Origin: a virus
Length of the DNA: 42,495 nucleotides
Reading direction: 5' to 3' (one strand)
IMG/VR virus record: IMGVR_UViG_3300025141_000220
Location: 1 to 42,495 of that record
Both the position numbers and the translations under genes were made by a program. The notes beneath the pieces are model-generated. The model worked only from the letters and a program-made list of their open reading frames with translations. It ran no database searches and had not been told where the DNA came from. Shown here in pieces: positions 148 to 38,218 of the stretch; position 1 is the first letter of the stretch; every line of letters starts with the position of its first letter.

Positions 148-3100
148 TTATTCAAAGCTCACACCACTGTTTGTGATAATAAAGTCGACAGCAATGAATT
201 CAATTGCTCTCGTCGGAACCACAACAATACGTCCGTTGAGTTTGTTTTCCTCAACATCCCGAACTGAATTATTAGTATCATCGCAGACTACCTTGAATTG
301 TTCGATTCCTGCTTGGGCTTGGATTAGTGCCAAGAGTGGTGTAACTTGGGAAACAAATCTAGCTCGAGTTTGTGCATTATTAGGCTCAAATAGAATCTTG
401 TTGGCAACCCGGACGATCTGTCGCTTCACTTCTAGTAACATTCGACGAACATTAACTCTGTCTAGAGCAGACTTCTTCATCTGTAGAGTCTTTTGACCAA
501 AGATTACAAAGCCTGCCTTAGGAAAGACAGCGATCGGATTAATTCGAGCATCATAGAGAGTGTCTCTATCTCCCGAAGAAAGTCTAGTTTCAACGTTAGT
601 CACAAAGTCCAGAGCACCTCGATTAAATCCAGCAGGTGCGAACCAAGGGAACGCGACCTTGTCATTAAACCCAAGTGTAGCTAGCGCAGCACAAGATGCT
701 GGAACTTTAACAACTTGATTATTTTGTTCATCGTTGATAAACACATCTGGGAAGAATGTTGCTCCGTAATTGTTGTCAACTGCACGAGATTCAAAGTTCT
801 CTGCGGTTTCTCTAACATCAACTCTATTTTTGGAGTCATCGTAAAGTCGGGCTCCATCCTCATCTAGCTTGATGAGATCCATCAAGTAAATTGCCTGTGA
901 GTACTTCTTAGTCTTGGATAGCGCGTGATCTGTTACAAACGTATCACGAATTCCTGGAACTGCCAAGATATTAATATTGACTGAGAGCGGGTCAGTCATG
1001 ATATCAACCGCTCTTCGTACTGAAGCGACACCGTTATTGAGGCGTCCCTTACCAAAGGGGTTAATTCCGCCGGCGCTGGGTTTGATACCCAAGTCAGGTG
1101 TGCCGTCGATGGCACCGCCACCTGTATCTGATGAGATTGCCTTATCCTTGAAGAAGTAAGCATTCTCGTCTGTGATGTTTACACCATCCCAACCGCCGTA
1201 AAAGACGTTGGTAAACTTAGCGTACTCCGTAAATCTATTGAACAAGACAGAGCTTGTCTGGATCAAAGATGCTAACGTATATCGATCACTTCTTTGACCA
1301 TCACTAATGGTATAGGTCGTCTTATCAGGGTCACCATTTCTAATGTAAGATGCTTCCTTGATATGCTCGCCTGAACTTCCAGTAAAGGCTGAGAATACTC
1401 CGGAAAGTCCTGTTCCTGCGTCTGCATTATAGAATGCCACTCGAGCAAGAGTAAATTTATTATTGTTAAACTCGTCTTTACCAGAACCCGTAACTAATAG
1501 ACCTAACTTCTCAATTCCTGCAAACTGTGTATATGCTGCAACCAGAGGGTTAGCAACAGTACTCACATTTGTATTGAGAATAGCATTAGATAAAGATGAA
1601 GTACGTGGGGTTCTAGTAGGTTTAACACCCCAGTAGAAACGTCCATCAACTCTTTCGTTTGTACCGGTTTCACCAACCCATTCAGGAGATAATGTGGAAC
1701 TTACAGCCCCACGTGTTATCTTGAATCGGAAAGGTAGTGGAGGAAGAATTGATCCGGTTGCCGATGTCCAAGCATTCGGTATAACAGCGCCGACTTGAGC
1801 GCTACAGGCTAATCTTCTTGGATTTCCTCCGCCAAGTGTAGTACCGTTAGGGTGCTTCAAAGAAGTTGTTACTGAATCTGTTAGTGTATCATTTGTCTTG
1901 AGTGTTGGAAGTCCTCTAAACCCAAATGGAAGAGCATTCGCTGGAATATCTTTTCCTTCCACTTCAGAGTTCATCTGGACCCTGATTCTTTGTGAAACGT
2001 TTGGATATTTTCCGCTAATGACTAGACGACGTTCGTTCGGATCCTCTTGATCAAAGTTGTACTGTACTTTCTTATCACCGATTTGTCTTGCGACATATCG
2101 ATCGGACCTAGGATCCAGAGTACAATCCGGATATCTTTCTAGAATTTCTGTATTAGTGTCGTTATCTGTAAAGTTTCTTACTTGGACTTCAAATGTCCCG
2201 TATTTATAGTTGGGATCAGTCGAAGCTCGAACATTTGCAATTGAAACCTTAAATTTATCATTAGCATATACGCCGTCTGATAGTGTCTCAACATGGAAAA
2301 GATCAAACTCTTTAAACCCATATGGTTGTGATATAAATGTTGTGGTTCGTGGAGTTGTATAACGCGTGTCAAATCTACCAAATGCACGACTAAATTCTTG
2401 GGTAGATGAACCTCCAGTTACTGTGTCGGTTGATCCGGATACTAATGCAACAGACGGAGTTGAACCTGAAAGTACCGGTGCTAGGTCATTGCCTACAGCA
2501 TAATCAGCATAAAGTAAATGTTGTTCTTTTTGAAATTTTAGTGGGTCTGTATTTAAAACCTTAGCAATATAGTTTCCATCGGCTGGGTCTAAAGACGCGG
2601 AAATTATACGAATTCCCGGCTGCTTATCATCATTAGCAAATGATAGCCCGGCTGAAGAACTTACAATTACCTTAAAGTATTTTGTAGAAGTCAAAGCTGA
2701 TCCGCTAATAGATGTAACGGGTACCTGATCCTTCATTCCGGCTACTGTGTATCCTTTGACATCACTTGCATCTAAAAGCTGAATTTGTGTTCCAGATGGC
2801 GTCATCAAAACCGCACGAACCAGATTCACAGTTGATGCAACCCCTCGAGTTGAGAAGAAACTATCGTTATCTGTAAAGACTGGATAGCCTACAGATTCTT
2901 CCGCAGAGGGCGTGTGTTGAGCAACTATTAGCTGAACGGCTCCTTCGAGTCGTTTACGAGCGTTTAGTGTTCCTCTAAACTCAACCCCAGCGTTCCTAAC
3001 AGTACCCTGATTTAGTGTTGTTTCTATATCGGCAGCAGTTTCATTGGCGCCGGCTCCCAGGACCCTCATATAGGTCAAGGCAGTTCTGTGCTTTAAAAAT

Positions 3101-3315
3101 TCCCTAACGGCGTAGGGACCGAATCTGTTTGTGTCTAATCCACCAAATTTTGTTTCGAAATCAGCAAAGGAACCCACAGTCACAGGAACGAAAGCCGGTC
3201 CTCGTTGTGATGTTCCGATGACTCCTGCAGGTGTTCCTGTAGGGGCAACTTTACGTGCCGATAAGTCTATTTCCTGTTCGAAAAAACCAGGTGAACGAAA
3301 TGTTTGCTCAGCCAT
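148..3315 (-). CDS. Tail sheath protein (T4 gp18-like)
   Basis: Protein of 1055 residues, clearly larger than T4 gp18 (659). The N-terminus (SPGFFEQEIDLS, then GTPAGVIGTSQRGPAF) is the typical start of contractile-tail sheath proteins. The last 90 residues carry the sheath C-terminal pattern: ILFEPNN, a run containing TR and a helix, GIEQFKVVCDDTNN, then VPTRAIEFIAVDFIIT. In contractile tails these two ends form the conserved core and the inter-subunit mesh, while the middle forms variable surface domains. The extra length here therefore probably lies in outward-facing insertions. The start is ATG with AGGAGA eight bases upstream. It follows the gp15-like gene and precedes a second sheath gene. 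A weak late-promoter-like GATAAATC lies at 3331-3338 in the spacer upstream. Confidence 0.93.
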   Translation of the reverse strand: MAEQTFRSPGFFEQEIDLSARKVAPTGTPAGVIGTSQRGPAFVPVTVGSFADFETKFGGLDTNRFGPYAVREFLKHRTALTYMRVLGAGANETAADIETTLNQGTVRNAGVEFRGTLNARKRLEGAVQLIVAQHTPSAEESVGYPVFTDNDSFFSTRGVASTVNLVRAVLMTPSGTQIQLLDASDVKGYTVAGMKDQVPVTSISGSALTSTKYFKVIVSSSAGLSFANDDKQPGIRIISASLDPADGNYIAKVLNTDPLKFQKEQHLLYADYAVGNDLAPVLSGSTPSVALVSGSTDTVTGGSSTQEFSRAFGRFDTRYTTPRTTTFISQPYGFKEFDLFHVETLSDGVYANDKFKVSIANVRASTDPNYKYGTFEVQVRNFTDNDTNTEILERYPDCTLDPRSDRYVARQIGDKKVQYNFDQEDPNERRLVISGKYPNVSQRIRVQMNSEVEGKDIPANALPFGFRGLPTLKTNDTLTDSVTTSLKHPNGTTLGGGNPRRLACSAQVGAVIPNAWTSATGSILPPLPFRFKITRGAVSSTLSPEWVGETGTNERVDGRFYWGVKPTRTPRTSSLSNAILNTNVSTVANPLVAAYTQFAGIEKLGLLVTGSGKDEFNNNKFTLARVAFYNADAGTGLSGVFSAFTGSSGEHIKEASYIRNGDPDKTTYTISDGQRSDRYTLASLIQTSSVLFNRFTEYAKFTNVFYGGWDGVNITDENAYFFKDKAISSDTGGGAIDGTPDLGIKPSAGGINPFGKGRLNNGVASVRRAVDIMTDPLSVNINILAVPGIRDTFVTDHALSKTKKYSQAIYLMDLIKLDEDGARLYDDSKNRVDVRETAENFESRAVDNNYGATFFPDVFINDEQNNQVVKVPASCAALATLGFNDKVAFPWFAPAGFNRGALDFVTNVETRLSSGDRDTLYDARINPIAVFPKAGFVIFGQKTLQMKKSALDRVNVRRMLLEVKRQIVRVANKILFEPNNAQTRARFVSQVTPLLALIQAQAGIEQFKVVCDDTNNSVRDVEENKLNGRIVVVPTRAIEFIAVDFIITNSGVSFE

Positions 3316-3369: not shown

Positions 3370-4569
3370 TTAGCCATTGGTTTCTCTCAAAACGGTTTCT
3401 CCGCTTCTTCTTATTCTAGTTTTTACCAAAACCTTCTTCTTGACAGTCTGTCCAGTAAAAGGATCATGAAGAACTTCAATCACCCGTGTATCTGAATCTG
3501 AAACTGTCCCACCAATGTTTGCTGTGGACTTTCCACCTAATTTACCCTTGGCATTTGCCATAGCTTGTCCTGGAAGATTTTGATCTACTGTTCTCATATC
3601 ATCTAAAATTAAGTTTTTAGTATCCGCCGTGGGTATATTTGCAGGAGGATCCACAACATAACTATCTGTGAAAATGTCAGAATCAAACGATATCTGCGGC
3701 GCAGATACAAATTTTCTCAATCTATTTTCTGCTCCTTTAAACGGAGAGCCCACAATATAAGCTGGTACTGTTACGTTAAACGAATACCTCACTAGCCTTT
3801 CTGCATCAGTAAAATCATCGAAATTATTTCCTGGAGCCAACTCTTCATCAACATACGCAACAAACCAATACCCTTTACTAGTTTCTATTCTAAATGCTCT
3901 TTGAGAATATGATTGATAAAGAGACATCATAGACATAATCATTTCATTCATTTGGGTTGTATATTGTGTCCAAAATGTTACTTCATAAGTTGCAGTAAAG
4001 TATTTTGGGGGTGGCATTGTAATAATTTCAAATATATTGTTTCCCAGCTCATTAGATAAAACTTCACCTTTTCGTACATCGAATGAAGTAGGTGTCTCTG
4101 ATCTCCGGGTTGCTATCCTTCCGGGGACTGATCCTGTGGAGAGAGAAGGGAATTGGGTTCTTGCATCATCTGATACTAGATTATCAGAGTTATCCAGCCC
4201 TACCTTATTTATCAATCTTTGATAAGACGGATCTTCGGGTGACAACCTCTTTTTTATTGTTATTTCTTGATTTTGATTTGTGCCGGCGCCCATTGTTGGA
4301 GTCTGGTTAATTCCTGTTCGCATTATGGATACCAGCGGCAAGACAATGGCACCTGATTTATCTCTCAGTGGCTCTTTTCTTCTTAGCACAGCAAATCGTT
4401 CACCGGTGGCGAAGATCACCGGGGCTTTTTTAGTTCCTTCCTTATGTCTAAACACAAAGGGTAAATCTTTGTCAAAAAGGGTAAAAAGAGCACGATCCAC
4501 ATCTTCGATGGTGCAACTAGGAATGGTAAAATCTTCAGGAGGGTTTCCCTTATTATCTCTTATGGACAT
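3370..4569 (-). CDS. Tail terminator / proximal sheath stabiliser (T4 gp15-like)
   Basis: Protein of 399 residues. The central region resembles T4 gp15: ATYEVTFWTQYTTQMNEMI corresponds to the gp15 segment beginning MIYELSIFTRYEDDM. It is followed by a helix and strand, then a segment matching gp15's late region (DAERLVRYSFNVTVPAYI against the LTFEVNGWMYPP part). gp15 caps the tail tube and sheath and provides the contact with the neck. Position supports the call, since the gp13-like and gp14-like genes lie immediately upstream and the sheath gene downstream. It is about 130 residues longer than T4 gp15, with an extra N-terminal region and a C-terminal extension that is basic at its end (VKKKVLVKTRIRRSG). 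The start is ATG with a GAGG site. The assignment is by recalled similarity, without a profile search. Confidence 0.7.
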   Translation of the reverse strand: MSIRDNKGNPPEDFTIPSCTIEDVDRALFTLFDKDLPFVFRHKEGTKKAPVIFATGERFAVLRRKEPLRDKSGAIVLPLVSIMRTGINQTPTMGAGTNQNQEITIKKRLSPEDPSYQRLINKVGLDNSDNLVSDDARTQFPSLSTGSVPGRIATRRSETPTSFDVRKGEVLSNELGNNIFEIITMPPPKYFTATYEVTFWTQYTTQMNEMIMSMMSLYQSYSQRAFRIETSKGYWFVAYVDEELAPGNNFDDFTDAERLVRYSFNVTVPAYIVGSPFKGAENRLRKFVSAPQISFDSDIFTDSYVVDPPANIPTADTKNLILDDMRTVDQNLPGQAMANAKGKLGGKSTANIGGTVSDSDTRVIEVLHDPFTGQTVKKKVLVKTRIRRSGETVLRETNG

Positions 4570-5273: not shown

Positions 5274-6449
5274 TTACCCCATGATTATTGCTGTACCGCC
5301 TGGTACAGGGATGTTTTTAAGAATTCTTTGAAGATTTTCACTAGCTGCTGCTTCATCTTCAAGCATCGCACTGTAAGTTAGCTCTTCAAGCATTTCTGAT
5401 AGTTTGGTTTTTAATGCTTCGATATCTTCTCTTGCTTGAGATATTAGATTATCACCATTCAAAGTAAGATCAGATCCAGGGATAGGAACAGTAGCAAATT
5501 TTGATCTAATAAGACCTAGCAATTCTTTGCTTAGTGCTAAAGCATACTGTCTTATCCACTGACGTCCGATCGAGTTAATATTTGTGTATGTCAACCTTCC
5601 ATATGGAATATTGGAAAGGTTACTGACACCGTATATTGTGTCATCTTCGTATGCTGGATTCATTGGGTCTGGAGAGAATCCTACACGGACCCATAGATTT
5701 TTAGGCTTAACTGGAGATCCTGTTGGCTTAGGAAATATTCTTATTTTTGTTCCCGATATCTTGTAAGAATAATTGCTTCTTCTTACCCTCGAAGACATGT
5801 CTAGCATACCTCCGCGCAGTATATCTTCAAACAGCGGAAGGACGTAAAAAATAGACTCCGGAGTGTACGATTCAAATGCAAACTCATTCGCCAAATAGTT
5901 GGTAGCGCTGGTAGTATCAAAAAATCTATATGCATTTGATGGGGCAAAATGGAAAACTTCAAGTATCTTCATTTTACCTTTTGGATTATTTAGAGCATTG
6001 CTGTATAGAGTATTTCCAGCATCATCTTTTAGGTCAGTATAGAGATCGTAATCTTGAACGTTTGCTGTGATTTCTATAGATCCCGAGAGGGTATTATATG
6101 ATCCCCCTAAGCCCGCGTCCATTGCGTAGGGTTCAGCTCGTCGTAACATAAACTCAAAATTTTCACGTGGAAATTTTTGTTCACTGCCTGACATTGAACC
6201 GGTCGCAGCACCTAATAGATTTGCTAGCTGGGACTTGGCTTGATATTGATTTATTATAGCACCGTATTCACAAAATGATTCTTCAAACGTCGCCCATATT
6301 TGTTTCTTAGTCAGCTCGACGCTTAGAATATCATCACCCAACTTTCTTTTAACAAAAGTTACTAGTGCGTCTGCTTCTGTTTGAAACACAGTATCAGTGT
6401 CAAAAAATCCAAACGGAGTTGGATTAGTTGTATTTGCAAACGTTGCCAT
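5274..6449 (-). CDS. Neck protein (T4 gp13-like)
   Basis: Protein of 391 residues. The N-terminus (VKRKLGDDILSVELTKKQI) matches the T4 gp13 start (ILRRLGAPIINVELTPDQI). The C-terminal helical region is especially alike: RQWIRQYALALSKELLG, then IPGSDLTLNGDNLI, then QAREDIEALKTKL, against gp13's NRWVKDYATALAKELNG, LPGGVTIDGQRLI and EEARLEKEALREEL. gp13 is a connector protein that binds the portal after packaging and links the head to the tail. It is about 80 residues longer than T4 gp13, mainly in the middle. The start is ATG with GGAG upstream. A candidate promoter motif (6469-6475) lies in the 64-bp spacer before it, suggesting that the neck/tail-completion genes may have their own promoter. 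Confidence 0.82.
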   Translation of the reverse strand: MATFANTTNPTPFGFFDTDTVFQTEADALVTFVKRKLGDDILSVELTKKQIWATFEESFCEYGAIINQYQAKSQLANLLGAATGSMSGSEQKFPRENFEFMLRRAEPYAMDAGLGGSYNTLSGSIEITANVQDYDLYTDLKDDAGNTLYSNALNNPKGKMKILEVFHFAPSNAYRFFDTTSATNYLANEFAFESYTPESIFYVLPLFEDILRGGMLDMSSRVRRSNYSYKISGTKIRIFPKPTGSPVKPKNLWVRVGFSPDPMNPAYEDDTIYGVSNLSNIPYGRLTYTNINSIGRQWIRQYALALSKELLGLIRSKFATVPIPGSDLTLNGDNLISQAREDIEALKTKLSEMLEELTYSAMLEDEAAASENLQRILKNIPVPGGTAIIMG

Positions 6450-6513: not shown

Positions 6514-6687
6514 TTAATTGCGACGACGACAGCGCACTCTTGCCGTTTGCACTTTGGGTGCAGCTACTTTTGAAGCTTCTTCCACAGCTGCAGGAGCTTC
6601 CGGGGCTGCTACAGGCACGGATGGTGCAGCAGATTTATTTGTCTTTTTTGTTGTTGTCTTTTTTGTTGTTTTCTTTACGTCAGCCAT
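6514..6687 (-). CDS. Small Lys/Thr/Ala-rich basic protein, 57 aa
   Basis: This 57-residue ORF starts with ATG at 6685-6687 and ends with TAA at 6514-6516. A GGAG ribosome site lies upstream, and the gene starts 4 bp after the stop of the coiled-coil membrane protein. The N-terminal third is a Lys-Thr repeat (KKTTKKTTTKK), the middle is Ala/Pro/Val-rich, and the end is Arg-rich (VRCRRRN). The composition recalls histone-H1-like tails and small nucleic-acid-binding or condensing proteins, but no fold can be recognised. It could bind DNA or RNA, or be an internal or packaged head protein (inference). The tight spacing suggests co-expression with the two genes upstream. Confidence 0.7.
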   Translation of the reverse strand: MADVKKTTKKTTTKKTNKSAAPSVPVAAPEAPAAVEEASKVAAPKVQTARVRCRRRN

Positions 6688-6691
6688 TTTG

Positions 6692-7021
6692 TTACTCCAC
6701 TATTTTCATTAGCCACATTGCCGCTGCCATTCCAAATTGAACTACAGCGAATATTGTTATTGCTTTTGTTTTGAAGATCTTTAATTCTTCTATGTTAACT
6801 ATAAGGTCGCGCAGCTGTGTGGGCGATGCTACATCGTCTATTCTTTCTTTCCACTGTCGAAGCTCATCTACCTTATCTTCTTTTGCTTGCATTTTAGTTA
6901 ATTCTTGCTTGACAGTCTGAAACTCTGTCTTGAGCCCCTCTATGCTATCATTAAGTGATTCTAGCTCTTTGAGAACAAGCCTGGAATATTCGTTCCAACC
7001 ATTTTGACCATCGCTTGGCAT
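6692..7021 (-). CDS. Coiled-coil protein with C-terminal membrane anchor (holin-like layout)
   Basis: Protein of 109 residues. Residues about 12-85 are heptad-like and charged (ELESLNDSIEGLKTEF, VDELRQWKERIDD), predicting a coiled coil. Residues about 88-107 (AITIFAVVQFGMAAAMWLM) form one hydrophobic membrane segment near the C-terminus. This tail-anchored coiled-coil layout is seen in XhlA-type lysis accessory proteins and some small phage membrane proteins. No endolysin or second holin is present in the window, so a lysis role is only a hypothesis. Its ATG overlaps the stop of the PAS gene (TAATG), which implies translational coupling and a shared role or fixed stoichiometry. It may instead be a membrane scaffold or signalling partner. 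Confidence 0.8.
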   Translation of the reverse strand: MPSDGQNGWNEYSRLVLKELESLNDSIEGLKTEFQTVKQELTKMQAKEDKVDELRQWKERIDDVASPTQLRDLIVNIEELKIFKTKAITIFAVVQFGMAAAMWLMKIVE

Positions 7022-7572
7022 TACTCTTCTCCATGTTCATCTAGTAAACGTCTTAGACGACTAGCAGATAACGCTTTATCAGCGACTTGATGTATTTCCT
7101 TGTATTGGCCTCGGCGGCCATGGGTAGTATCATGAATAGACTCTATGCATGCTAGCATTACTGCATTACTAGTTACATCCCATGCTATTCCCGAAACTCC
7201 CATTAGATCTCCATTACTATTTTGTCTCGGAACTAATTTTGCATAATAAACATTTGTTTCGGTCTTGACAAAATAATCGATCTTTTCTCCCTGCAGGGCT
7301 TTTTCATGTCTCTCTAAGGACATCGACCTAACAGTGGGACACATAAACATATCTTCCAGGCTATTTGCCTTTCGACATGCAAATCCATTCCCCCGCTGTG
7401 ATATCACTGTCTTGTCCTTGGTAATGGACCACATTGTTACAGGGATTGGAAAGTTTTCAAAAAATTCTTCAAATAATTCAAAATCTTTTTTTAGCTGATT
7501 ATCTCTATCACTTAGTTCTTCAACTAACGACTTGAGCTTAAGCATACTTTTCTTTGAATTACGTGGACTCAT
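7021..7572 (-). CDS. PAS-domain sensor-like protein
   Basis: Protein of 183 residues. Residues about 10-35 form a short coiled coil (LKSLVEELSDRDNQLKKDF). Residues about 36-135 look like a PAS fold: FFENFPIPVTMWSI at the first strands, a central helix region, then YFVKTETNVYYAKLVPRQN, NGDLMGVSGIAWDVT as the final beta-hairpin strands. The last 45 residues are helical and basic. There is no kinase, GGDEF or clear helix-turn-helix domain, so this is a stand-alone PAS module. PAS domains sense small ligands, redox state or light, or mediate dimerisation; the ligand here cannot be told. It is the first gene after the terminator that ends the capsid operon, and it overlaps the membrane-protein gene by one base. 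The ATG at 7570-7572 has no good ribosome site, and an in-frame TAG lies upstream, so this is the earliest possible start. Confidence 0.75.
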   Translation of the reverse strand: MSPRNSKKSMLKLKSLVEELSDRDNQLKKDFELFEEFFENFPIPVTMWSITKDKTVISQRGNGFACRKANSLEDMFMCPTVRSMSLERHEKALQGEKIDYFVKTETNVYYAKLVPRQNSNGDLMGVSGIAWDVTSNAVMLACIESIHDTTHGRRGQYKEIHQVADKALSASRLRRLLDEHGEE

Positions 7573-7614
7573 GGTATATAACTATCTTGTTGGTGTCAAA
7601 TCATGAAAAAGGTT

Positions 7615-7630
7615 GATACAGATTTGTATC
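7615..7630. repeat. Inverted repeat upstream of PAS gene (operator-like)
   Basis: GATACA and TGTATC form 6-bp arms around a 4-bp centre, about 42 bp before the PAS gene start. An overlapping shorter palindrome (CAGAT...ATCTG) is also present. On the minus strand a perfect TTGACA lies nearby at 7594-7599, but no convincing -10 follows at the right distance. The surrounding 7573-7745 spacer holds no recognisable gene. The repeat may be an operator or RNA hairpin; function unproven. Confidence 0.4.
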
Positions 7631-7745
7631 TGTTTGGATCTTTTGTTCTTTTTTAAGGTTACTATCAAACTAATTAATGGAATGTCTTAGAGGACCCCTA
7701 GAGGCTTTACGGCGGCCATTGTTTTCATAATTTGAATAATAAAAA

Positions 7746-7772
7746 AGGCGCCCTGGAAAAACCAGGGCGCCT
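7746..7772 (-). terminator. Rho-independent terminator after major capsid gene
   Basis: A perfect 11-bp stem (AGGCGCCCTGG pairing with CCAGGGCGCCT) closes a 5-nt loop. On the minus strand it is followed by six Ts and then an A/T-rich tract. It lies 28 bp after the capsid stop codon. It is GC-rich in an A/T-rich neighbourhood and is the only strong intrinsic terminator I see in the window. A minor AGATC-GATCT hairpin lies between it and the stop codon. Confidence 0.95.
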
Positions 7773-7800
7773 CAGATCATGCGATCTTTCTAATCTATGA

Positions 7801-9777: not shown

Positions 9778-11346
9778 TTAGTCATTGCCGTGCAAGCCGG
9801 CGAGGACTGCCCATCGTTCCGCCTCAACACCATTTCTTGATCTGCTTTGTGCTGATCGGGTTGATCTGGAAGACGATCCGAGCGTCCGTAGTGATCCCTC
9901 ATTTAGTTTCTTACCACGAGCGCGACGGGTGAGGGACTCCGACAAACTCTTATAAAGCAACTTTGCCTCTCGGAGCGTCTTGGCATTATCTAGGGCCTCG
10001 ACAATAGCTCGTTGCTGCTTAGTTGATAGATTCTTGTTCTGCATTAATTTATTTGCATAAAGAAGCTTAGCATTGAAGAGATTCATCTCAACAAGCTGTT
10101 TCTTGAGAGTAGAAACCGCTCCTCGATATTGCTTAAGCTGACGTGACTCGTTTACACGAGATCTACGGCGGCTAGCTGATCGACGGCGTCTACGTGATTC
10201 TGCGACTGATCCTGAAGTGCCTGGGGCAGGGGGTACATGCTCAGAGTCACCAAGCTCATCTGCGAGTGCGTTGATTAAATCATCCTCATCCACATCAAGC
10301 TCGACATCACCGATTTCCTCTCCTCCGTGTGCTAAGAAAGGATCTGCCTCAGCGGCACGTCCTTCTTCCTGCTCACGAAGTCGACGCATACGGCGAATTT
10401 CTCGACGAAGCATTCCTTCATCGATTTCAATGACCTCCTCTTCGGCGGCCTCCTCTTCCATACCCATATCATCGACGACCTCTTCGTCCTCGACTTCTAC
10501 TTCTTCCTCAACCTCTTCTTCTACTGCTACATCGAGTGCAACCTCGACATCGCCTAGAATATCTGCGAGGGCCTGATCTACTGCATCTGCGTCTTCTGCA
10601 GCTGCAAGCTCTTCAGACTCTTCATCCTCAAGCTCAAGCGAGAGTTCAGCCTCCTCGAGCTCGCTCATTTTCCCCTTTTCCTCTTCCTCGAAGAGAAAAT
10701 CGAAGATATTTCGACGGTTTGACTTTGACATCTGTTTCATCTCCTTGATAATTGCTGATAGTCTCCGCTCAAGTTTATCTTGAGTGTTGTCCTGTTCGTT
10801 AAGTATTACCTTACTGCGTAAATTTAATGTCTCTCTTAAACAATGCATAAAAGAAAGATTCAGTCTCGTCTTCTGCGACCTTGTTAGATCACCTTTTAAT
10901 GTAGACTCATTTATTTCACGCAGTTTTGAAACTCTTGACTCTAGGGCAACGATTCTCTCCTTAGTAGATGGTTCAATCTCTACTTCTCCACGAATTAGAC
11001 GCCCGAGGGCCTCTGCCATGGTATCTGTTAAAACTTCCTCTTCTTCTTCGGATTCTTCTGAATTAACTGATATGTTGACGTCACCCTGGGCTGAAACGTT
11101 GAATAACGCGCCAGGGGCCTCTTCTTCCACCTCTATCTCAGTCGCTTGCTCGACCGGTTCAGGCTCATCAGTTAATTCCATAGCTATGATTTCATCTTCA
11201 AGCTGCTCACCCATAATCCGCCTGTTTACTAGGTCTCTTATTTGGGGCATCACAGCGTCAATAACACGATTTTTGGCAGTATCTTCTGCCAATTCTCTTA
11301 GTTGCTTTGCATCAGCAATTGCTTCTTCATAAAGTGATCTATTCAT
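9778..11346 (-). CDS. Prohead core scaffold protein (gp22-like position)
   Basis: Protein of 522 residues, very acidic from about 50 to 345 with long Glu/Asp runs (for example EEEVEEEVEVEDEEVVDD). Next come an Arg/Ser-rich patch around 380-400 (SRRRRRSASRRRSRVNES) and a helical region LFNAKLLYANKLMQ, LSTKQQRAIVEALDNAKTLREAK. That last motif is one I associate with scaffold or core proteins of large marine myophages. Scaffolds direct capsid assembly and are then degraded by the prohead protease; the acidic composition and position directly before the capsid gene agree. T4 gp22 is half this size. Start ATG with a GGTGG site. Antisense Ser-rich ORFs over this gene are composition artefacts. Confidence 0.75.
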   Translation of the reverse strand: MNRSLYEEAIADAKQLRELAEDTAKNRVIDAVMPQIRDLVNRRIMGEQLEDEIIAMELTDEPEPVEQATEIEVEEEAPGALFNVSAQGDVNISVNSEESEEEEEVLTDTMAEALGRLIRGEVEIEPSTKERIVALESRVSKLREINESTLKGDLTRSQKTRLNLSFMHCLRETLNLRSKVILNEQDNTQDKLERRLSAIIKEMKQMSKSNRRNIFDFLFEEEEKGKMSELEEAELSLELEDEESEELAAAEDADAVDQALADILGDVEVALDVAVEEEVEEEVEVEDEEVVDDMGMEEEAAEEEVIEIDEGMLRREIRRMRRLREQEEGRAAEADPFLAHGGEEIGDVELDVDEDDLINALADELGDSEHVPPAPGTSGSVAESRRRRRSASRRRSRVNESRQLKQYRGAVSTLKKQLVEMNLFNAKLLYANKLMQNKNLSTKQQRAIVEALDNAKTLREAKLLYKSLSESLTRRARGKKLNEGSLRTLGSSSRSTRSAQSRSRNGVEAERWAVLAGLHGND

Positions 11347-19251: not shown

Positions 19252-19623
19252 TCAGTCTTCTATTTTAAAAACATGATTATACCGGTAGTAAGCAACTCTT
19301 CTTGACGAATGGGGTTGTATTAATTCGACATCATCTTTGCCGCCTAAATCTTCTGTCTTAAGAGTGCTTCCAGTAACTTCCTTGAAAGCTTTCTTTACCA
19401 GGGTCAACTTTTCATTTATCAAGTTAACAGCATGTCTATTAGCTTCTGCAACTTGTGGACCATATGCTGACTCTCCAGCAAAATGTACGACTGTTGTAAA
19501 CTTAAGTGTTAAAAGATTTCCAGCCAAATCGTACTTAACAGAATATGTTCCGGATGGGCTTGACTCCCTTCCCCAACTATTCTCTAAAACTTGTCCTATA
19601 ATTCTTACGGTATTAGTATTCAT
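19252..19623 (-). CDS. Conserved unknown protein preceding large terminase, 123 aa
   Basis: The first half is beta-rich (RIIGQVLEN, TYSVKYDLAGNLLTLKFTTVVHF). A helix follows (EANRHAVNLINEKLTLVKKAFKEVTG), and the protein ends in short strands (RRVAYYRYNHVFKIED). It sits where T4 has the small terminase gene 16, but the alpha/beta pattern does not match the mostly helical small terminases I know, so I do not assign that role. It may still work with the packaging motor. ATG with AGGTGG upstream and a candidate ATATTTA promoter 16 nt before the start. Its TGA stop is in the same frame as the GTG of the terminase gene. Confidence 0.78.
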   Translation of the reverse strand: MNTNTVRIIGQVLENSWGRESSPSGTYSVKYDLAGNLLTLKFTTVVHFAGESAYGPQVAEANRHAVNLINEKLTLVKKAFKEVTGSTLKTEDLGGKDDVELIQPHSSRRVAYYRYNHVFKIED

Positions 19624-19638
19624 AAAACCACCTCTGGG

Positions 19639-19869
19639 TTAAATATGCATCTTAGATCTAGCTTCTTCAACAGAAGGACGCCAACCGTCCCTCCACTTAT
19701 CTAAAAATATATGCTTAAAGTTAATAGTGCACTCTGAACATGCTTTTTCTTTTCTTACAGATCGAACATCATGGTCATCTCTTAAGACAAACTTGCACAC
19801 CGGACATTCGAGTGGGGCCTGCTCTCCCTTGACAATAATTTGTGTTCTATGTGTATTGTATTTTCGCAT
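19639..19869 (-). CDS. Small zinc-ribbon protein, 76 aa
   Basis: The protein contains CPVC at about residues 18-21 and CSEC at about 40-43, separated by about 18 residues. This CX2C...CX2C pattern predicts one zinc ribbon. The C-terminal part (FKHIFLDKWRDGWRPSVEEARSK) is helical. Such small zinc ribbons often bind nucleic acid or act as adaptors of polymerases; no specific family is recognised. Its start lies 23 bp inside the end of the Mre11-Rad50 fusion gene, so it is probably co-translated with the recombination genes. It might be a late-transcription or recombination accessory factor (inference). The ATG at 19867-19869 has AAAGG upstream. Confidence 0.75.
   Translation of the reverse strand: MRKYNTHRTQIIVKGEQAPLECPVCKFVLRDDHDVRSVRKEKACSECTINFKHIFLDKWRDGWRPSVEEARSKMHI
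19640..19646 (-). promoter_or_regulatory. Candidate late-promoter-like ATATTTA element
   Basis: The minus strand reads GCATATTTAACCC, with 16 nt between motif and the ATG at 19621-19623. It overlaps the stop codon of the zinc-ribbon gene. AGAGGTGG lies between it and the start. It could open the packaging/head operon downstream of the replication genes (inference). Confidence 0.4.
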
Positions 19870-22800
19870 CGGGACCTTTTCGTCTAATTTCTAAAACATT
19901 GTCAACCCCGTCTTTAACAGCATCGACATGAGATATAACTAATATTGCCTTGAACCATTTTTTAAGAGATTCTAAAAATCTACCGCATGCTTCTACATTA
20001 CCGCTATCTAGCGCACCGAATCCTTCGTCTATTATTAGAATATCAGACTTAGGAAGTGCAGAGACGTTTATTAATGCTACACGAATTGCCAGGGCAGACA
20101 TCATTTTTTCCATGCCACTACAACACTCAATTATTCTTTTGGAATCTCCGTAATTGATATAAACAGCCATCTCATTAGACCCTTCGTCTGATTCAAGCTC
20201 AACTGTAAAGCCTGTGACTCCTTGTAGAATACTAGCAATCTCTTCATTAATATCAGGGAGTCTGGATCTTATGACTTCAAGTGGAATTCCATTTTTGGAG
20301 GTTGCTTGTAAGAAAAGTTCAAAAACTCGCCATTGTTCATTTAGACCTTCAAACTCATCTTTTTCTACTAAAAGATTCTTTATTTCTGACTGTAGTAGAC
20401 CTATTGACTCTGACAGAGATGCATGCCTGTTTTCTTTTTCACCTGCAGAAATATTTAGATTTTTTAGTTTTGATCGAAGAGATCTAACTTGCAAGGCAGC
20501 ATCATCAGACGATACATTTGCCTTCATGTCGTCCAGTTCTTGTTCTGATTTTCTGATCTCTTCTGTTATCTTATGTAGTTTATTCTTCTCAGTTGCTAAC
20601 GAAATCTCTGTCTTACTCTTTTGAACTGTAAACTCATTGTGTCTCACAATCAGATCGTTATACTTTTCTAGTTTTTCTTCTAGTCCTTGGTCCAATAATT
20701 TTTTTAGACCCTTTCTAGTAACTTTTAAATCCTCTTTTAAATCATCAATTTTAGAGTTTTGCTTTTCTACTTCTTTTTTTGATTTATGAGCACTAGTGAT
20801 GTACTGACATGTGGGGAAACTATCACCACATGGAACTTCATCTAATTTAGATACCTCTTTGTGGAAAGACTTAAGTCTCTGCTTTTCTTTGTCCACAGAG
20901 TGCTTTATTGATGATACAGAATTCTCCAGCTCTCTTTGTTCGTTTATTGATACCCTAAGCTCTTCCACGGGAAATTCTTCTTTGAAATCCGTAAGCTTTG
21001 TTACTTTTCCGGAAAGAACATCAAACTTATTTCTTAGACCTTCAATGTTCTTTAATCTTTGGTCTTTTTCTGTCTCAAAGATGCCTATTTTCTCTTTTTG
21101 TTCATCTAGGTCTTGTTGTGTTACTAGATTACTATCACTTCTCGTTGCCAGGGTCAATTCTAGTTCTCTAATTTTTGACCTTATAGATTCGAGATCATCC
21201 CAAATTGACTCTCTATCAATTTCACGGGCTCTAAGTTTACTTCTAGAATCTAGTATCGATATGTCAAAATCTCTATCAGGAGCTGCTTTGAGAAGCTGTT
21301 TAACTCCAGCAGATTCTTCTCTTGCTGATTCGTGTAAACGATCAAAAACATCTAACTCTAGAAACTTAGAAAGAACAGCTTTTCTTGCAGAAGCTTTTTG
21401 TTTTAGAAAAGAATTCATCTCTCCCTGGGATGCAAATGATGTTAGTAAGAAATCTTCAGAAGACCCTACTATTTCCTTGAGAATTTTCTCGGTCTCTCTT
21501 CTTTGCTCCCCGCATAAATCTTTTACTACATCGCCCTCATCATTGACTTCAAGTAGATTTAGTTGTGTAGTGGCACTTAACTTACCTGATCTAGCTTGTT
21601 TCTTGACAGTCTGTCGTTCGACTACGTAATTCCTGCCGGCTTTGCTTATCAGAGCAGTTGCCTTGCAATGTCCTTTCCTAGAATTAATTACGTGTAGATT
21701 AGAAATAGATCCTCTATCAGTAGAATTGAACAAATTATACATGATGCTTCCACAAATAGAAGACTTACCTACTCGATTACGTCCGAAGATTCCGGTGATT
21801 CCTTCGCATTTATCAAAATTAATTTCGTTTCCCTTACCATAGCCAAACGTATTATCAAATTCAATGTTTTTAAGTGACCATTTTCCACCTATTGATCGAT
21901 CTGCTTTCATGGCACTCTTCCACAATCGATGGACCAACTCTTCTAGTCTCGAATTCATTCTGTCGCTAAGATTGGCTCTTTCATAATATTTCATAAGCAT
22001 AGATGAAACTATCTTAGGATCATGCAAATTGATCATGTTAGGATGAATCGTATCTTCTTGCCTCAAGTCACTTCTCGACACATCATGCTTCATAACAATT
22101 TCAGTTGCACTCTTAAACTCTTTTAAAGAAGAATAGAGCTGCTTTATTTCACCCTGACTTATTGGAATCGCAGTTTTAATTCTGTATCTGGCAAAATCAG
22201 GAAATTCATCTGCTTCATCTAAGGTACTCGAAACCGAGCCTTTCCAGTTAATTGTTATAAATGGCCTATCATGTGGTACTTGAAAATGTTGAGACGAGTA
22301 ATTTTTAGCATCTTCTATTTCCCATAAAAGGTAACCCTTGTCTGGTGTTTCACCAAAATTTTGCTGAATCGTAGAACCACAGTAGGCAATTCGTTTGTGA
22401 GGCTCCAGGTATTGATGTCTATGAATGTCCCCCAAGAAAACGAATTCATACCCATCAAACATCGAAACATCAACTTCACCTTCCATTTCCCAGTCAATAT
22501 CAGTCTTGCTTCCTCGAACAGCGCCGTGAAAAATTCCGATGTTTATTTTCCCCGGGGTTGGTTCCATTTCCGCCCATGTCTCTTCATCAAAACAAGAAAA
22601 GTTTATAATATCCACTTGATCATCAAATGCCACCTTTTCAGTCATCTTAATGAGATGAAGATTAGGTAAATCAAGCGCATAAATGATAGGGCTTATCGCG
22701 TCTTCTCTATCTTTGTTCAATATTAAGCCATCGTGATTGCCCAATGTAACGTATGTTGGTGCTATGTCAGCCAAGCCTCTAAACCACCAACAGAGACTAT

Positions 22801-22978
22801 TAATCAACTCCGGGGATATCCCTTGTGTCTTGGAGTGTACTATGTCTCCTGCAATAAAAATTGCATCTACATCTTGTTCTTTCAGCATTCGAAATGCGGA
22901 AGAAAAAGCTCTTTTATACTCATCATGACGACTCAGGCCTCGCCAGTGTACATCGCCGAAATGCGCAAATTTATACAT
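19847..22978 (-). CDS. Mre11-Rad50 (SbcD-SbcC, T4 gp47-gp46) fusion nuclease/ATPase
   Basis: A single open frame of 1043 residues joins two proteins that are normally separate. The N-terminal half has the Mre11 phosphoesterase motifs: GDVHW (8-12), AGDIVH (44-48), LGNHD (79-83), FHGAV (150-154) and GDIHRHQ (183-189). The Rad50 half begins near 365 with Walker A GRNRVGKSS (399-407). It continues into a long coiled coil interrupted by a hook-like C717-x6-C724. It ends with the signature SGMEKMMSALAIR (954-966), Walker B LIIDEGFGALD (981-991) and the H-loop His1017. The complex resects DNA ends for recombination-dependent replication. The hook spacing is CX6C instead of the classic CXXC, and the signature reads SGME rather than SGGE. 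Start ATG with AGGAAA. It precedes the zinc-ribbon gene, overlapping it. Confidence 0.93.
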   Translation of the reverse strand: MYKFAHFGDVHWRGLSRHDEYKRAFSSAFRMLKEQDVDAIFIAGDIVHSKTQGISPELINSLCWWFRGLADIAPTYVTLGNHDGLILNKDREDAISPIIYALDLPNLHLIKMTEKVAFDDQVDIINFSCFDEETWAEMEPTPGKINIGIFHGAVRGSKTDIDWEMEGEVDVSMFDGYEFVFLGDIHRHQYLEPHKRIAYCGSTIQQNFGETPDKGYLLWEIEDAKNYSSQHFQVPHDRPFITINWKGSVSSTLDEADEFPDFARYRIKTAIPISQGEIKQLYSSLKEFKSATEIVMKHDVSRSDLRQEDTIHPNMINLHDPKIVSSMLMKYYERANLSDRMNSRLEELVHRLWKSAMKADRSIGGKWSLKNIEFDNTFGYGKGNEINFDKCEGITGIFGRNRVGKSSICGSIMYNLFNSTDRGSISNLHVINSRKGHCKATALISKAGRNYVVERQTVKKQARSGKLSATTQLNLLEVNDEGDVVKDLCGEQRRETEKILKEIVGSSEDFLLTSFASQGEMNSFLKQKASARKAVLSKFLELDVFDRLHESAREESAGVKQLLKAAPDRDFDISILDSRSKLRAREIDRESIWDDLESIRSKIRELELTLATRSDSNLVTQQDLDEQKEKIGIFETEKDQRLKNIEGLRNKFDVLSGKVTKLTDFKEEFPVEELRVSINEQRELENSVSSIKHSVDKEKQRLKSFHKEVSKLDEVPCGDSFPTCQYITSAHKSKKEVEKQNSKIDDLKEDLKVTRKGLKKLLDQGLEEKLEKYNDLIVRHNEFTVQKSKTEISLATEKNKLHKITEEIRKSEQELDDMKANVSSDDAALQVRSLRSKLKNLNISAGEKENRHASLSESIGLLQSEIKNLLVEKDEFEGLNEQWRVFELFLQATSKNGIPLEVIRSRLPDINEEIASILQGVTGFTVELESDEGSNEMAVYINYGDSKRIIECCSGMEKMMSALAIRVALINVSALPKSDILIIDEGFGALDSGNVEACGRFLESLKKWFKAILVISHVDAVKDGVDNVLEIRRKGPDAKIQYT

Positions 22979-28306: not shown

Positions 28307-29023
28307 TTACGATGCCGTTGGTCGTGATATTGTCACTGTGAAATCTTTTCTAATTCCGGATTGATCACCCACGATTGATACGACACTTGTTATCTTATTT
28401 TTGTTGTCTGAATCTCCATAGATATTGAAAATAGTATCATCTAGACCTGGTTGCAAAATTAATGTGAGATTAGCCATAGCGCCGTTTGACTTATTTGTTT
28501 CACTTCTAGTCACACTATAGGATGCAATTCTTGTTGTAGATTCTACAGAAATTTCAGTTTTTCCCTGTACAGAAAGGAACCTATCAGGCACTAAAACTGT
28601 AAAAGTAGTGTCTGATACTCCGTCGGGAATTGTGGTTTCTCCTGTAATTACTTGCTCAACTGATACTGCATTTGTTGTACTAGTTGATGTATTAAAAGCA
28701 AGGATATTGCTTGTTAAGTTAGTTGCTGTTAAAGAAAGTGATGGTAGTCGTATTACAGTAGGATCTGGTAATGTTAAAAGTCTATTCTTAAGAGCCAAGT
28801 TCGCTTTTGTCTGGGCTTCAAAAATAGGCGTATTCTTTGATATTTTTTCTTTTCCTACTGCTCTTCCAAATTTTTCAATAATCGTATAATCAACTTCATC
28901 ATCTGCTAAAGAAAAGAAAGCGATCTTAAATCTACCTCTATTGTCAGCTAACATCTGACGACCTTGATCTGTTAAAACAGCATCTATAATAATATTATTT
29001 GTCGAATGATCTAAAAATCCCAT
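28307..29023 (-). CDS. Tail-fibre-type structural protein, 238 aa
   Basis: The N-terminus, IIIDAVLTDQGRQMLADNRG followed by KIAFFSLADDEVDY, has the LT-x2-G-R-x3-A pattern found at the start of many tail-fibre and baseplate-attached proteins. The 317-aa protein (37265-38218) begins in a parallel way (DYIITEEGKRQATAGQMK, then YASFTD), so both probably use a related attachment domain. The rest is beta-rich with Ser/Thr repeats (FTVLVPDRFLS, IASYSVTRSE, NLTLILQPG, DFTVTISRP). ATG with GAGGTG upstream and a candidate ATATTTA promoter 17 nt before the start. Confidence 0.7.
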   Translation of the reverse strand: MGFLDHSTNNIIIDAVLTDQGRQMLADNRGRFKIAFFSLADDEVDYTIIEKFGRAVGKEKISKNTPIFEAQTKANLALKNRLLTLPDPTVIRLPSLSLTATNLTSNILAFNTSTSTTNAVSVEQVITGETTIPDGVSDTTFTVLVPDRFLSVQGKTEISVESTTRIASYSVTRSETNKSNGAMANLTLILQPGLDDTIFNIYGDSDNKNKITSVVSIVGDQSGIRKDFTVTISRPTAS

Positions 29024-34463: not shown

Positions 34464-37265
34464 TTAAAATTTCTTCGTCCAGCCTGGGGCACCGATTGCT
34501 TTAGCAATGTTAGAAACTCCCATTGATTTTGGAGCCACTTTTCCCTTTGCAAATATCTTCTGCTTCTTAACGAGGCCTTTAAAATCACCTAAAATCTTGA
34601 TTTTTTTCTTTTTAGCAAAAAATGCTTTGGGTAGATTTGTGTATGTCGTATGAGTTTCCTTATTAGACGGAGCTGATACAGAGCTGTCTCTATAAACAAA
34701 CTTTACTGTATATGTCTTTTTCCCTACTTGACTTCCAAATTTTGTATCTTTAAACTTAAAATACATTCCAGCGCCGGAGCAAGCAACTGTTCCGGCAACG
34801 TGTGATTTATCATTTATTGTTACAAATATTAAACAGTAATCAACATCTGAAGTGTCTTCAATAGATGATTTCCAATATAGACGATATCCTTTATGACGCC
34901 CCGTCTTAATGTTTCTCCCTCTTAATTCTACCGGCTTAGGCAAAGGTTTGGGGGTTTGGACATCTACTTGGAGTGTTATGCCTGTTTCTCCTAATCTAAA
35001 CATGTCTCCCGGCGAGAGGTCCTCAATGTCTTTGTTGCTGGGTATTGCACCTGTTGATTGCGCAAAGGCACCTAAAAACTTTTTCGCATTTGCCTTGATG
35101 GATTTTTTAGCATTTTGTGCTGAGTAGGCATTTACAAACACATCTCTTAAAAAAGACTGTGGCGGTCTCAGACATAACTTGAAAAAATAGGAGTATCTTC
35201 CGGAGGGCATTAGACCAGGTATTTTTAATCTTTTTCTAACAAGATCATTGTCCTCAAAAGTCCCGGGTGCATGTAAGCCAAAAGAGATTCTTTTTCCAGT
35301 AACTCTATCAATTCTTTCAACCACAAAAACAGCTAGTTCAGCTAGTTCAGATCTGGATTTTTTAATTTCATCAACCAGGACTTGATCTACACCTGCTTTT
35401 TCCATTACATTTAAGATAAAATCTATCCCCTCTGGCTTTGGGAGACTAATTGCGTCTATAGAGACTCTAAAGCCACCAGACTCTTCTCTTCCTACTTGTG
35501 TGTTGCTTAACGACACCTCCACAGGCAGTGGTCTAACTGGCTTTCTTCTTATAATGTGCTCATCTTCCTCAGAAATAAACTCTCCGCCCAATGTTGGTCT
35601 CATTGCACAAAAATATCGGTACCTCTTATACAGATCAGCGCTATAATCAAAATATGTTAACTTAGATACACCGCCGAAAGTATCATTCAAGGTCTTTCCG
35701 TCATTTGTAGGTATTACTTGCACCCTCTTGTCTAGGCTGCCAGTCTCATCTATTTCTTCTCTTAAAAGTCTTATTCCTATTACTTCATCCGGTATTTTTT
35801 CAACATCAATTTTTATTCTTTCATTTTCATTGATTGCAATAATTGCTAAAGCATTGGGATCTTCTTTTGCAGTCGGCATATTCACATTAACATGACCTTT
35901 TATTACATAGCTAGCAGAAGGCCCTAGCTGTCCCATCCCAGATTTTGATATTGCTCGATAGATTACTGTATTTGGGAAAATATTCTCAGGGTCAAAGTCA
36001 GTAATAATTTTACTTGGGTCGTCTGATGTGAATTTTAAATTTGCCACAATAGTAGGTTTTGAAAAATCTGATTTTCTGGGTGAGATTACAGATCTCACAA
36101 GAGACACACTTGAAGCTGTTGGATCTTTCTGTGTTAGACGCAAAATCACAACTCCCTTCTTATCTAAGACTAGAGATACCTCTGGTGCATACTCTGGTAC
36201 TAGAATCTCTTCTACCTTAGATTTGTGATTGACGGAAAATATAATGGGCAAAGTCTGTTTGTTGATTTTAAATAAGGTATTTTCTTTCTTAAGGATTGGT
36301 GTTATTCTTACCCAGAATCTTTCTTTCATCCCAAGTAAATCCTTTGGTAGCTCTATTATTCTCTTGACAGTAAAAAGAGAGTTTTCAATTGTTGCCTTGT
36401 ACCCTAGATTTACTAAGCTATTTTCAGATAAACGATTGCTTGATGCTAAATTAGATAGTTTTTGTGCGTCATTACTATCATCATCTTGAAGCTTTCTAAG
36501 CTTTTCTCTTTCATCCATTAAAGATTTTACTGCATGCATCGTATTAAATGCAACACGATCAATTTGATCTTTTGGTGGAGGATCATCTAGCGGTACTGAG
36601 GCTTTATTTATTTGTGCAGATAACGTAGGAATAAATGGCGTTGGTTTCGCCAGCATCATTGCAGGATCGAGGCCTTTTTTTAACACAGACTGCTTTGAAT
36701 ACCCTTTGAACGATAAACCTATTCCGCTATTCTTTACGATAGATTTTATAGGAGTAGCTGTTATTTGTGTCGGCTGCTTTTTATTTCCTGTCTCTGGGGG
36801 GAGCATAAAGAAAGATGTATATGTCTTTGGTTTGGGCAGATACATTTTATTAGATAGAAACTGGAAACTATTGCTAGGCAGCGGAATGTTTAGATCTATG
36901 TTAAACGAAAAGAACGAAGCAGGTGATTTCGTCAATAAGAAATTTCTTACATTACTTTTTCTTTTTTTTGCAATCTGGGATCTTGTATTATTTTGTCTGT
37001 CTACCTTAATTGTATTGTTAGGGTTTTTAGAAAAAAACTCCACTTTAAAGCCTAGAACTCCCAGCTCTATTACCTTTTCTTCATCGACTGTCAAGTCTAA
37101 CTCATACTCAAATGCGCCAGGTGATTCTATAAAATTATCAAATGTCTTTGACTTTACAGCATCATTCAAGATATCTGTAAGCTCTAGGTCATAGACTCCC
37201 TCAGAAAAATCAGCTATATCTTTAAATTTGACTTTTTGAATTCTATTGTTTTTGTATCTTGCCAT
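34464..37265 (-). CDS. Large beta-rich virion protein, probably with FN3-like units, 933 aa
   Basis: I start it at the ATG 37263-37265 (MARYKNNRIQKVKF); one extra upstream TTG codon is not needed. No sharp motif, but several segments look like FN3 or related sandwiches: YKRYRYFCAMRPTLGGEF, SGRYSYFFKLCLRPP, and KGYRLYWKSSIEDTSDVDYCLIFVTIND with KKTYTVKFVYRDSSVSAPS. The N-terminal region is rich in Lys/Asn, and the C-terminus is basic (KKKKIKILGDFKGLVKKQK). It is translationally coupled to the 317-aa gene (the ATG overlaps the TGA). Likely part of the baseplate or fibre network. Confidence 0.72.
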   Translation of the reverse strand: MARYKNNRIQKVKFKDIADFSEGVYDLELTDILNDAVKSKTFDNFIESPGAFEYELDLTVDEEKVIELGVLGFKVEFFSKNPNNTIKVDRQNNTRSQIAKKRKSNVRNFLLTKSPASFFSFNIDLNIPLPSNSFQFLSNKMYLPKPKTYTSFFMLPPETGNKKQPTQITATPIKSIVKNSGIGLSFKGYSKQSVLKKGLDPAMMLAKPTPFIPTLSAQINKASVPLDDPPPKDQIDRVAFNTMHAVKSLMDEREKLRKLQDDDSNDAQKLSNLASSNRLSENSLVNLGYKATIENSLFTVKRIIELPKDLLGMKERFWVRITPILKKENTLFKINKQTLPIIFSVNHKSKVEEILVPEYAPEVSLVLDKKGVVILRLTQKDPTASSVSLVRSVISPRKSDFSKPTIVANLKFTSDDPSKIITDFDPENIFPNTVIYRAISKSGMGQLGPSASYVIKGHVNVNMPTAKEDPNALAIIAINENERIKIDVEKIPDEVIGIRLLREEIDETGSLDKRVQVIPTNDGKTLNDTFGGVSKLTYFDYSADLYKRYRYFCAMRPTLGGEFISEEDEHIIRRKPVRPLPVEVSLSNTQVGREESGGFRVSIDAISLPKPEGIDFILNVMEKAGVDQVLVDEIKKSRSELAELAVFVVERIDRVTGKRISFGLHAPGTFEDNDLVRKRLKIPGLMPSGRYSYFFKLCLRPPQSFLRDVFVNAYSAQNAKKSIKANAKKFLGAFAQSTGAIPSNKDIEDLSPGDMFRLGETGITLQVDVQTPKPLPKPVELRGRNIKTGRHKGYRLYWKSSIEDTSDVDYCLIFVTINDKSHVAGTVACSGAGMYFKFKDTKFGSQVGKKTYTVKFVYRDSSVSAPSNKETHTTYTNLPKAFFAKKKKIKILGDFKGLVKKQKIFAKGKVAPKSMGVSNIAKAIGAPGWTKKF

Positions 37266-38218
37266 CAATCAAATTCCAGAGTAAAAATATTCATAAAAGT
37301 TTCTGACCCATTGGCATCTCTATAGAGTTTTCCTATAAAAAATATTTGCTTTCCTGGACTGAAAGGGTCATCATCAGTAAAGATGCCAAAATCAATAATA
37401 GAAAGCTTTTCAATTCCAGTAGAGGAAAACTCAAATACCTGTCCGATTAAATTATTGTCTCTAGATGTATCATCAAATTGTATTTCTACACTTTGCTTGT
37501 CCGACAATCCTTTTTTTAAATCTTTAAACTTTATTGTTTCTTTTTGGTTTAGTTTTGGATATACTCCTAAAGGCTTACCCTTTAAGTCTCCGGGAGTTGG
37601 TTTATTAATAGGTGGTAAATACAAGAAATTAGAAAAATGTGAAAATCTTCTATCAGCATATATGCTATCAGAAGCCTCTAAAGAAATACTACCATCTATA
37701 GACTTACCCATAGGCATATCATCCCAATAGTAAAAACTACCAGTGGTGGGTGATATCTTTAGGCCAGTTGTCATAGAAAAAGGATCAATAGTTCCTAGAA
37801 TTCTTTGATCAGTAAAATTAGAAGTAATCCCCATAAGAGATCGCTCTGATTTGTTGACAATCTCAGATCCTGTCAAAATATTGCTTTTTGTCTGGAATCC
37901 GATCTTAAACGTACCGGAAGCAACCACTTTACCATCAAACTGAAAGTCAGATGTTCGGAATGGTCTTAAAGAATTTCCGGCTTCTAATTCCGGAACAATG
38001 ACATCTTGAAAACGATTGGATGCTTCAAAATATATTCTGGAGGCAGCTGATTCAGCAACACCTGGATCTGTTATGGAGCCGGTGGGGGCATAAAAAGTAT
38101 GCATATCGGTGAATGAAGCATACTCGAATTTCATTTGGCCTGCTGTTGCCTGCCTTTTTCCCTCTTCTGTAATGATATAATCTATCATTCGCTCTTTGTT
38201 GTTTAGAATGCCTGCCAT
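37265..38218 (-). CDS. Structural protein with fibre-type N-terminus, 317 aa
   Basis: The N-terminus DYIITEEGKRQATAGQMK, FEYASFTD parallels that of the 238-aa protein (28307-29023), so the two share an attachment-type domain. The end (KLSIIDFGIFTDDDPFSPGK, QIFFIGKLYRDANG, MNIFTLEFD) distantly recalls the C-terminal strands of the LamG-type proteins here. The middle is loop-rich. ATG at 38216-38218 with no clear ribosome site. It is the first gene after the 99-bp spacer and starts the run of coupled structural genes. Role: tail-fibre or baseplate connector, by analogy only. Confidence 0.7.
   Translation of the reverse strand: MAGILNNKERMIDYIITEEGKRQATAGQMKFEYASFTDMHTFYAPTGSITDPGVAESAASRIYFEASNRFQDVIVPELEAGNSLRPFRTSDFQFDGKVVASGTFKIGFQTKSNILTGSEIVNKSERSLMGITSNFTDQRILGTIDPFSMTTGLKISPTTGSFYYWDDMPMGKSIDGSISLEASDSIYADRRFSHFSNFLYLPPINKPTPGDLKGKPLGVYPKLNQKETIKFKDLKKGLSDKQSVEIQFDDTSRDNNLIGQVFEFSSTGIEKLSIIDFGIFTDDDPFSPGKQIFFIGKLYRDANGSETFMNIFTLEFD

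Follow-up and report, generated by a model that had tools for sequence, protein, structure and literature searches.

Several described systems share part of their organization with the locus analyzed here. XhlA-type proteins (hemolysin; PHROG 1193) consist of a coiled coil with one C-terminal transmembrane (TM) helix, as does the PHROG 689 holin; to our knowledge, proteins of this type have no upstream PAS partner, nor do we know of a PAS partner in phage T4. Among bacterial proteins, short LOV and other stand-alone PAS proteins have a PAS domain flanked by helices alone. In T4, the holin T is paired with a cytoplasmic antiholin, RIII, and a periplasmic one, RI; RIII binds to the portion of T that lies in the cytoplasm (PMC8385771), and class III holins, such as T, carry a large periplasmic domain (PMC9636201). 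VqmA of phage VP882 is a PAS quorum-sensing receptor (PMC8284805) that acts as a DNA-binding transcription factor. A literature search on phage PAS plus holin and similar topics found no relevant publication.

We have analyzed a 42,495-nucleotide stretch of viral DNA (the window), an IMG/VR contig of 42.5 kb, in which the gene for a PAS protein is coupled to that for a tail-anchored coiled-coil membrane protein; these two genes are referred to below as the cassette. It resembles the T4 system in that a small cytoplasmic partner would control a membrane protein in a T4-like phage; however, T has its large periplasmic domain, whereas only a few residues follow the TM helix of the cassette protein and its long coiled coil is probably cytoplasmic. 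Set against the class III holin pattern (one TM helix, N-in C-out, and a large periplasmic C-terminal domain), the cassette protein has one TM helix and a short tail; its coiled coil with one C-terminal TM helix is the feature that it shares with the XhlA and PHROG 689 types. The PAS model resembles both the phage VqmA structure (7dwm, Z 9.1) and short LOV or stand-alone bacterial PAS proteins (Foldseek matches 7a6p and 7r5n), but its gene is linked to that of a membrane protein; furthermore, no DNA-binding domain like that of VqmA was found, and direct reading of the sequence found no LOV cysteine motif. Relatives retain the membrane protein and swap the sensor for other small proteins, and we take this as a hint of a plug-in type of control switch, not described before, that would act on a late-infection membrane event, possibly cell lysis.

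Gene order at the locus

The contig comes from an uncultivated, distant T4-like phage. Its gp23 matches Pfam with an E value of 2e-74, and the nearest gp23 proteins in GenBank, from Microcystis phage Mel-JY01 and Flavobacterium phages, are all less than 60% identical. On the minus strand, past the gp23 terminator, lie the genes for the PAS protein (183 amino acids [aa]; 7021..7572), the coiled-coil protein (109 aa; 6692..7021), and a Lys/Ala-rich protein with an Arg-rich C terminus (57 aa; 6514..6687), followed by a gene with a match to head-tail adaptor Ad2 in PHROG; start codons were assigned by a rule. These three open reading frames (ORFs) had been described in an earlier note on this DNA, and our own reading agrees with it: the PAS stop and the coiled-coil ATG share a single base (TAATG), and the Lys/Ala-rich ORF begins 4 bp beyond the coiled-coil stop. 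The terminator proposed to follow the capsid gene is also present, as an intrinsic terminator with a 12-pair stem and a T tail (7745..7773, minus strand) that parts the cassette from the capsid operon; L002 and L009 have similar ones. The claim that the longest noncoding stretch of the window lies here holds narrowly (228 bp at 7573-7800 versus 223 bp at 19624-19846 in our gene list). Overall, the observations of the earlier note were confirmed in part, and its interpretation was partly supported. Elsewhere in the window, a 1,043-aa ORF (19847-22978) appears by eye to be a fusion of an SbcD/gp47-like nuclease and an SbcC/gp46-like ATPase, which are separate genes in T4.

The Lys/Ala-rich protein had been taken as the third member of a three-gene unit. 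That unit did not hold up among the relatives, in which this protein is absent (L010, L016, and L049), upstream (L025, L027, L029, and L095), or downstream, and we regard it as a neighbor outside the cassette. Lys/Ala-rich proteins share a conserved Arg-rich tail (like RVRCRRRN), seen in the window (6514-6687), L002 (6886-7089), L007 (2466-2681), L009 (3565-3717), and L013 (5801-5959).

Fold of the PAS protein

By itself, the window protein matched Pfam PAS_4 weakly (E value, 0.16), profile libraries being nearly blind to the single sequence, and a match to a PAS superfamily profile was obtained at the family level only, among its homologues. PAS_4 was matched by 18 of 27 homologues (best E value, 2e-5), and the PAS protein of L123 scored above the curated Pfam cutoff (25.2 versus 23.1 bits). 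Solved structures searched by sequence gave no matches with the single protein and weak PAS matches with the family profile.

The AlphaFold model of the 183-aa protein (pLDDT, 83.3; pTM, 0.70) has the five-stranded antiparallel sheet and flanking helices of a PAS fold. An N-terminal helix (residues 3 to 39; 7456..7566, minus strand) precedes the PAS core (approximately residues 42 to 136; 7165..7449, minus strand), which is followed by C-terminal helices (residues 134 to 179; 7036..7173, minus strand). The top structural match (VIA) was a TodS-type PAS1 domain (5hwv; Z 11.4, with a root mean square deviation of 2.0 across 104 residues), and VqmA (Z 10) was matched along with the phage VqmA mentioned above; Foldseek returned PAS domains throughout (E value, 6e-6). 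The model and the Pfam matches of the homologues bear out the PAS fold that had been proposed from the sequence. P42, W48, G125, G128, W131, D132, and N136 of the core are retained in the homologues, which are 26 to 78% identical to the window protein. A Pfam scan found no DNA-binding domain after the PAS core, where approximately 45 residues, predicted to be helical, remain.

A different PAS-like stretch was noticed by eye, together with an N-terminal TM segment, in gp090 of Cellulophaga phage phi18:3 (L251, 39102-39617), two genes before the endolysin. This protein, which had no Pfam match, is probably the structural match S0A2B2, which comes from the same phage and has the same length.

The coiled-coil membrane protein

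AlphaFold predicts two helices for the 109-aa protein (residues 7 to 64 and 67 to 108), and the second contains the only TM stretch (approximately residues 86 to 106; 6704..6766, minus strand). Hydropathy of the homologues also gives one TM stretch in the same place, with only a few residues beyond it in all of them. The alignment, hydropathy, and model thus agree with the coiled coil and C-terminal membrane helix described in the earlier note. Because positive charges precede the TM stretch, the coil probably faces the cytoplasm. Mean column identity among 30 aligned homologues was 67%, and Y12, S13, V16, L20, L23, W57, K58, S66, P67, F91, and Q95 were invariant; compared with the window proteins, relatives were 43 to 90% identical in the coiled-coil protein, the better conserved of the two, versus 26 to 78% in the PAS protein.

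A scan of viral contigs confirmed 361 relatives of the membrane protein. In contrast, tblastn against 50,697 GenBank phages found no homologue of either protein; the queries against these isolated phages were the PAS and coiled-coil proteins, the L123 PAS protein, the L123 and L124 coils, and a made-up consensus. Single members of the family matched the PHROG 689 holin (E value, 1e-4) and, in another member, the PHROG 1193 hemolysin (E value, 0.002). Both matches are weak and include the TM stretch; profile scores of coiled coils are unreliable, since their PHROG and Pfam matches are widely unspecific, and neither match stands clearly above this noise.

Pairing of the two genes and exchange of the partner

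We gathered 67 nonredundant copies of the membrane protein, of which 3 were cut at contig ends and 64 had upstream DNA. The gene directly upstream encoded a PAS protein in 43 loci, a short helical protein of 67 to 89 aa in 19 (counting the GTG-start ORF of L151), and a NUDIX protein in 2. In 62 of the 64 loci, a PAS or short partner therefore lies immediately upstream, at a spacing of -26 to +4 bp, and the only PAS genes found apart from the membrane protein were two at contig ends. These counts support the earlier proposal that the PAS gene is tightly coupled to the coiled-coil gene, its likely output partner. That the PAS protein is optional, with a short helical protein in its place in 19 loci, had been missed. 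L248 has no visible partner upstream, and L124 and L128 likewise lack a PAS or short partner; by eye, each of the latter two has its NUDIX-type gene (3598-4315 in both) in the partner's slot, directly upstream of the coiled-coil gene.

The two kinds of partner have their N-terminal helix in common. Alignment of the PAS and short-partner profiles was confined to this helix (hhalign E value, 1.2e-6). When a hidden Markov model (HMM) of the PAS-protein N termini was run against 17,723 ORFs, the top-scoring ORFs not belonging to the PAS family were L140, L142, and L181 (4e-8 to 1e-5) and L249 (1e-3), each of which immediately precedes the membrane protein gene. The other short partners gave marginal scores and are considered kin on the grounds of their location, their length, and a looser LRxLRxxL pattern. 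No similarity was detected between the short partners and T4 RIII (hhalign probability, 0.2%). In L249, a contig from the genome of a single Prochlorococcus cell, the helix is joined to a different PAS domain (PAS_9 E value, 7e-6) that ends without C-terminal helices. We dropped the idea that the PAS domain is an insertion within the short partner, since only the N-terminal helix aligned and the L249 PAS domain lacks the C-terminal helices.

From these comparisons, the unit appears to be the membrane protein plus a partner with a constant N-terminal helix and an exchangeable body. The tree of the membrane protein, which is rough and built on few columns, has at least five changes of partner type, with two to three of them forced by well-supported branches. 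All of the relatives are metagenomic contigs or come from single-cell or metagenome-assembled genomes, so their hosts are uncertain.

The upstream control region

The control region proposed in the earlier note, a palindrome with a sigma-70 site, was rejected. The TTGACA is at chance level (one site versus 1.4 expected), shuffling the gap produced an inverted repeat of comparable size 43% of the time, and no close relative has the palindrome of 7615-7630. An Rfam scan of the whole window found nothing.

A different element, a late-promoter-like ATANTTA box (ATAGTTA; 7579..7585, minus strand), lies 13 nucleotides (nt) before the PAS start codon, with no ribosome-binding site between them. Of the 10 sense copies of ATANTTA in the window, 7 lie no more than 60 bp ahead of a gene start, in sequence that amounts to 4.7% of the window; none of the 3 antisense copies does. 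Box-to-gene distances in the window are close for two genes (-13 for 7021-7572 and -12 for 37265-38218) and greater for five (-24 for 28307-29023, -23 for 19252-19623, -29 for 9778-11346, -26 for 5274-6449, and -37 for 148-3315). Among 1,006 distinct ORFs of the loci, a set skewed to PAS loci since these were fetched deliberately, the distance from motif to ATG was bimodal, at 12 to 13 nt or about 22 to 44 nt, and the reversed motif gave near zero. None of the 21 ORFs of the 12- to 13-nt class, about 14 of which are PAS genes, had a Shine-Dalgarno sequence, whereas most of those in the 22- to 44-nt class did. A box lay within 20 nt of 22 of 38 PAS genes, compared with a background of 6%.

On this sequence evidence, ATANTTA(T/A) behaves as the late promoter would in this phage lineage and occurs at two distances from the start codon, and the late expression assumed in the earlier note is plausible. 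The simplest reading of the close placement would be a late promoter whose transcript starts at or near the PAS ATG; a box at -13 without a ribosome-binding site suggests leaderless translation of the PAS gene.

Genome position and possible function

In the window and many relatives, the cassette lies between gp23 and the neck-protein gene. This place, between gp23 and gp13 in the terms of the earlier note, is not fixed, as a check of the relatives made clear: in L123, the cassette is among nonstructural genes, and in five records it lies past nrdA-clpP-amidase-glnA/thyX (genes named by eye, except for the amidase). Each of 19 long records has exactly one copy of the membrane protein, in varying positions. 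Among eight records with an Amidase_2 endolysin, the membrane protein is 1.6 to 2.7 kb away on the same strand in five, with other genes intervening; since these five share one related neighborhood, they were counted as one observation. In G005, the nrdA-clpP-amidase-thyX neighborhood is present and the cassette is absent. No Peptidase_M15_4 endolysin was found near the cassette, and Phage_lysozyme was found solely in G007, distant from it. The L161 record has another small protein, with two TM segments, near the endolysin that could be a holin.

PAS proteins are usually dimers whose flanking helices shift upon ligand binding or redox change. We envision that the conserved coiled-coil protein would be the effector, anchored to the inner membrane through its C-terminal helix, the coil lying in the cytoplasm, and that the upstream gene would supply a cytoplasmic partner composed of the constant helix and an exchangeable body, which is a PAS domain in the window and a short helical body or another PAS domain in relatives. 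Movement of the PAS flanking helices would then change how the membrane protein oligomerizes. With somewhat less than even confidence, we propose that the pair is a two-gene membrane switch whose likeliest output is control of lysis timing, with a holin and a cytoplasmic antiholin-like regulator; late expression and the architecture point to this output. Late control of lysis is, with moderate support, the best-supported function, based on the late control, the architecture, the weak holin and hemolysin profile matches, and the endolysin neighborhood, each of which is weak alone. It is also possible, if rather doubtful, that the locus represents a new family in which a conserved tail-anchored effector can be fitted, through one adaptor helix, with any of several cytoplasmic modules (two or more kinds of PAS domain and the helical body), allowing lytic phages to connect various inputs to a membrane event late in infection, such as lysis, with the sensor gene translated leaderless.

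Other roles would fit some of the same observations. The single copy per genome, the membrane anchor, and a variable position that includes metabolic neighborhoods would suit a pair that acts at the host membrane in something other than lysis. Such a pair could exclude superinfecting phages or take over the inner membrane in some other way late in infection, and its PAS protein would report on the condition of the host; exchange of the partner suits adaptation to different hosts. The promoter-like box, however, points to late expression, and T4 Imm and other known exclusion proteins are expressed early; we consider such a role unlikely. That the PAS domain is a mere dimerization or stabilizing domain in a constitutive membrane complex, without any signal, might be argued from its replacement by a short helical body in 19 loci, its fast divergence (26 to 78% identity), and the lack of any known cofactor motif in the protein; however, the seven core residues are kept, and L249 carries another kind of PAS domain on the same helix, which suggests that the domain itself is useful. 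We assign this alternative little probability. We give the least credence to a role in head assembly, in which the coiled-coil protein would resemble T4 gp40 as a chaperone or an anchor in the membrane and would be regulated or stabilized by the PAS protein. In favor of it are the position between gp23 and the neck-protein gene and gp40 itself, which is annotated as membrane associated and is of nearly equal length, but the cassette is often distant from head genes, and gp40 is unlike the coiled-coil protein (hhalign probability, 0.3%) and has no obvious TM helix.

If the proposed membrane switch is correct, uncultivated T4-like phages would sense the state of the cell by a PAS domain and relay this to a membrane protein instead of DNA, placing a late step of infection under environmental control. 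The membrane protein family, with hundreds of unannotated copies in viral metagenomes and no match among GenBank phages, offers a concrete, testable case, and the natural exchange of sensor bodies on one adaptor helix would provide a ready system for studies of signaling from PAS domains to membrane partners.

The interval between gp23 and the neck-protein gene is a variable cargo region. Other Lys/Thr/Ala-rich, coil-bearing proteins occupy it where the cassette is missing. Tubulin/FtsZ-type GTPase look-alikes were noticed there by eye in L088 (8711-10006), L109 (5504-6814), and L246 (10066-11232), and those of L088 and L109 have the glycine motif GGGTGSA. In L072, as in L073, there is a tandem pair of gp23-like major capsid genes (962-2857 and 2954-4843 in L072).
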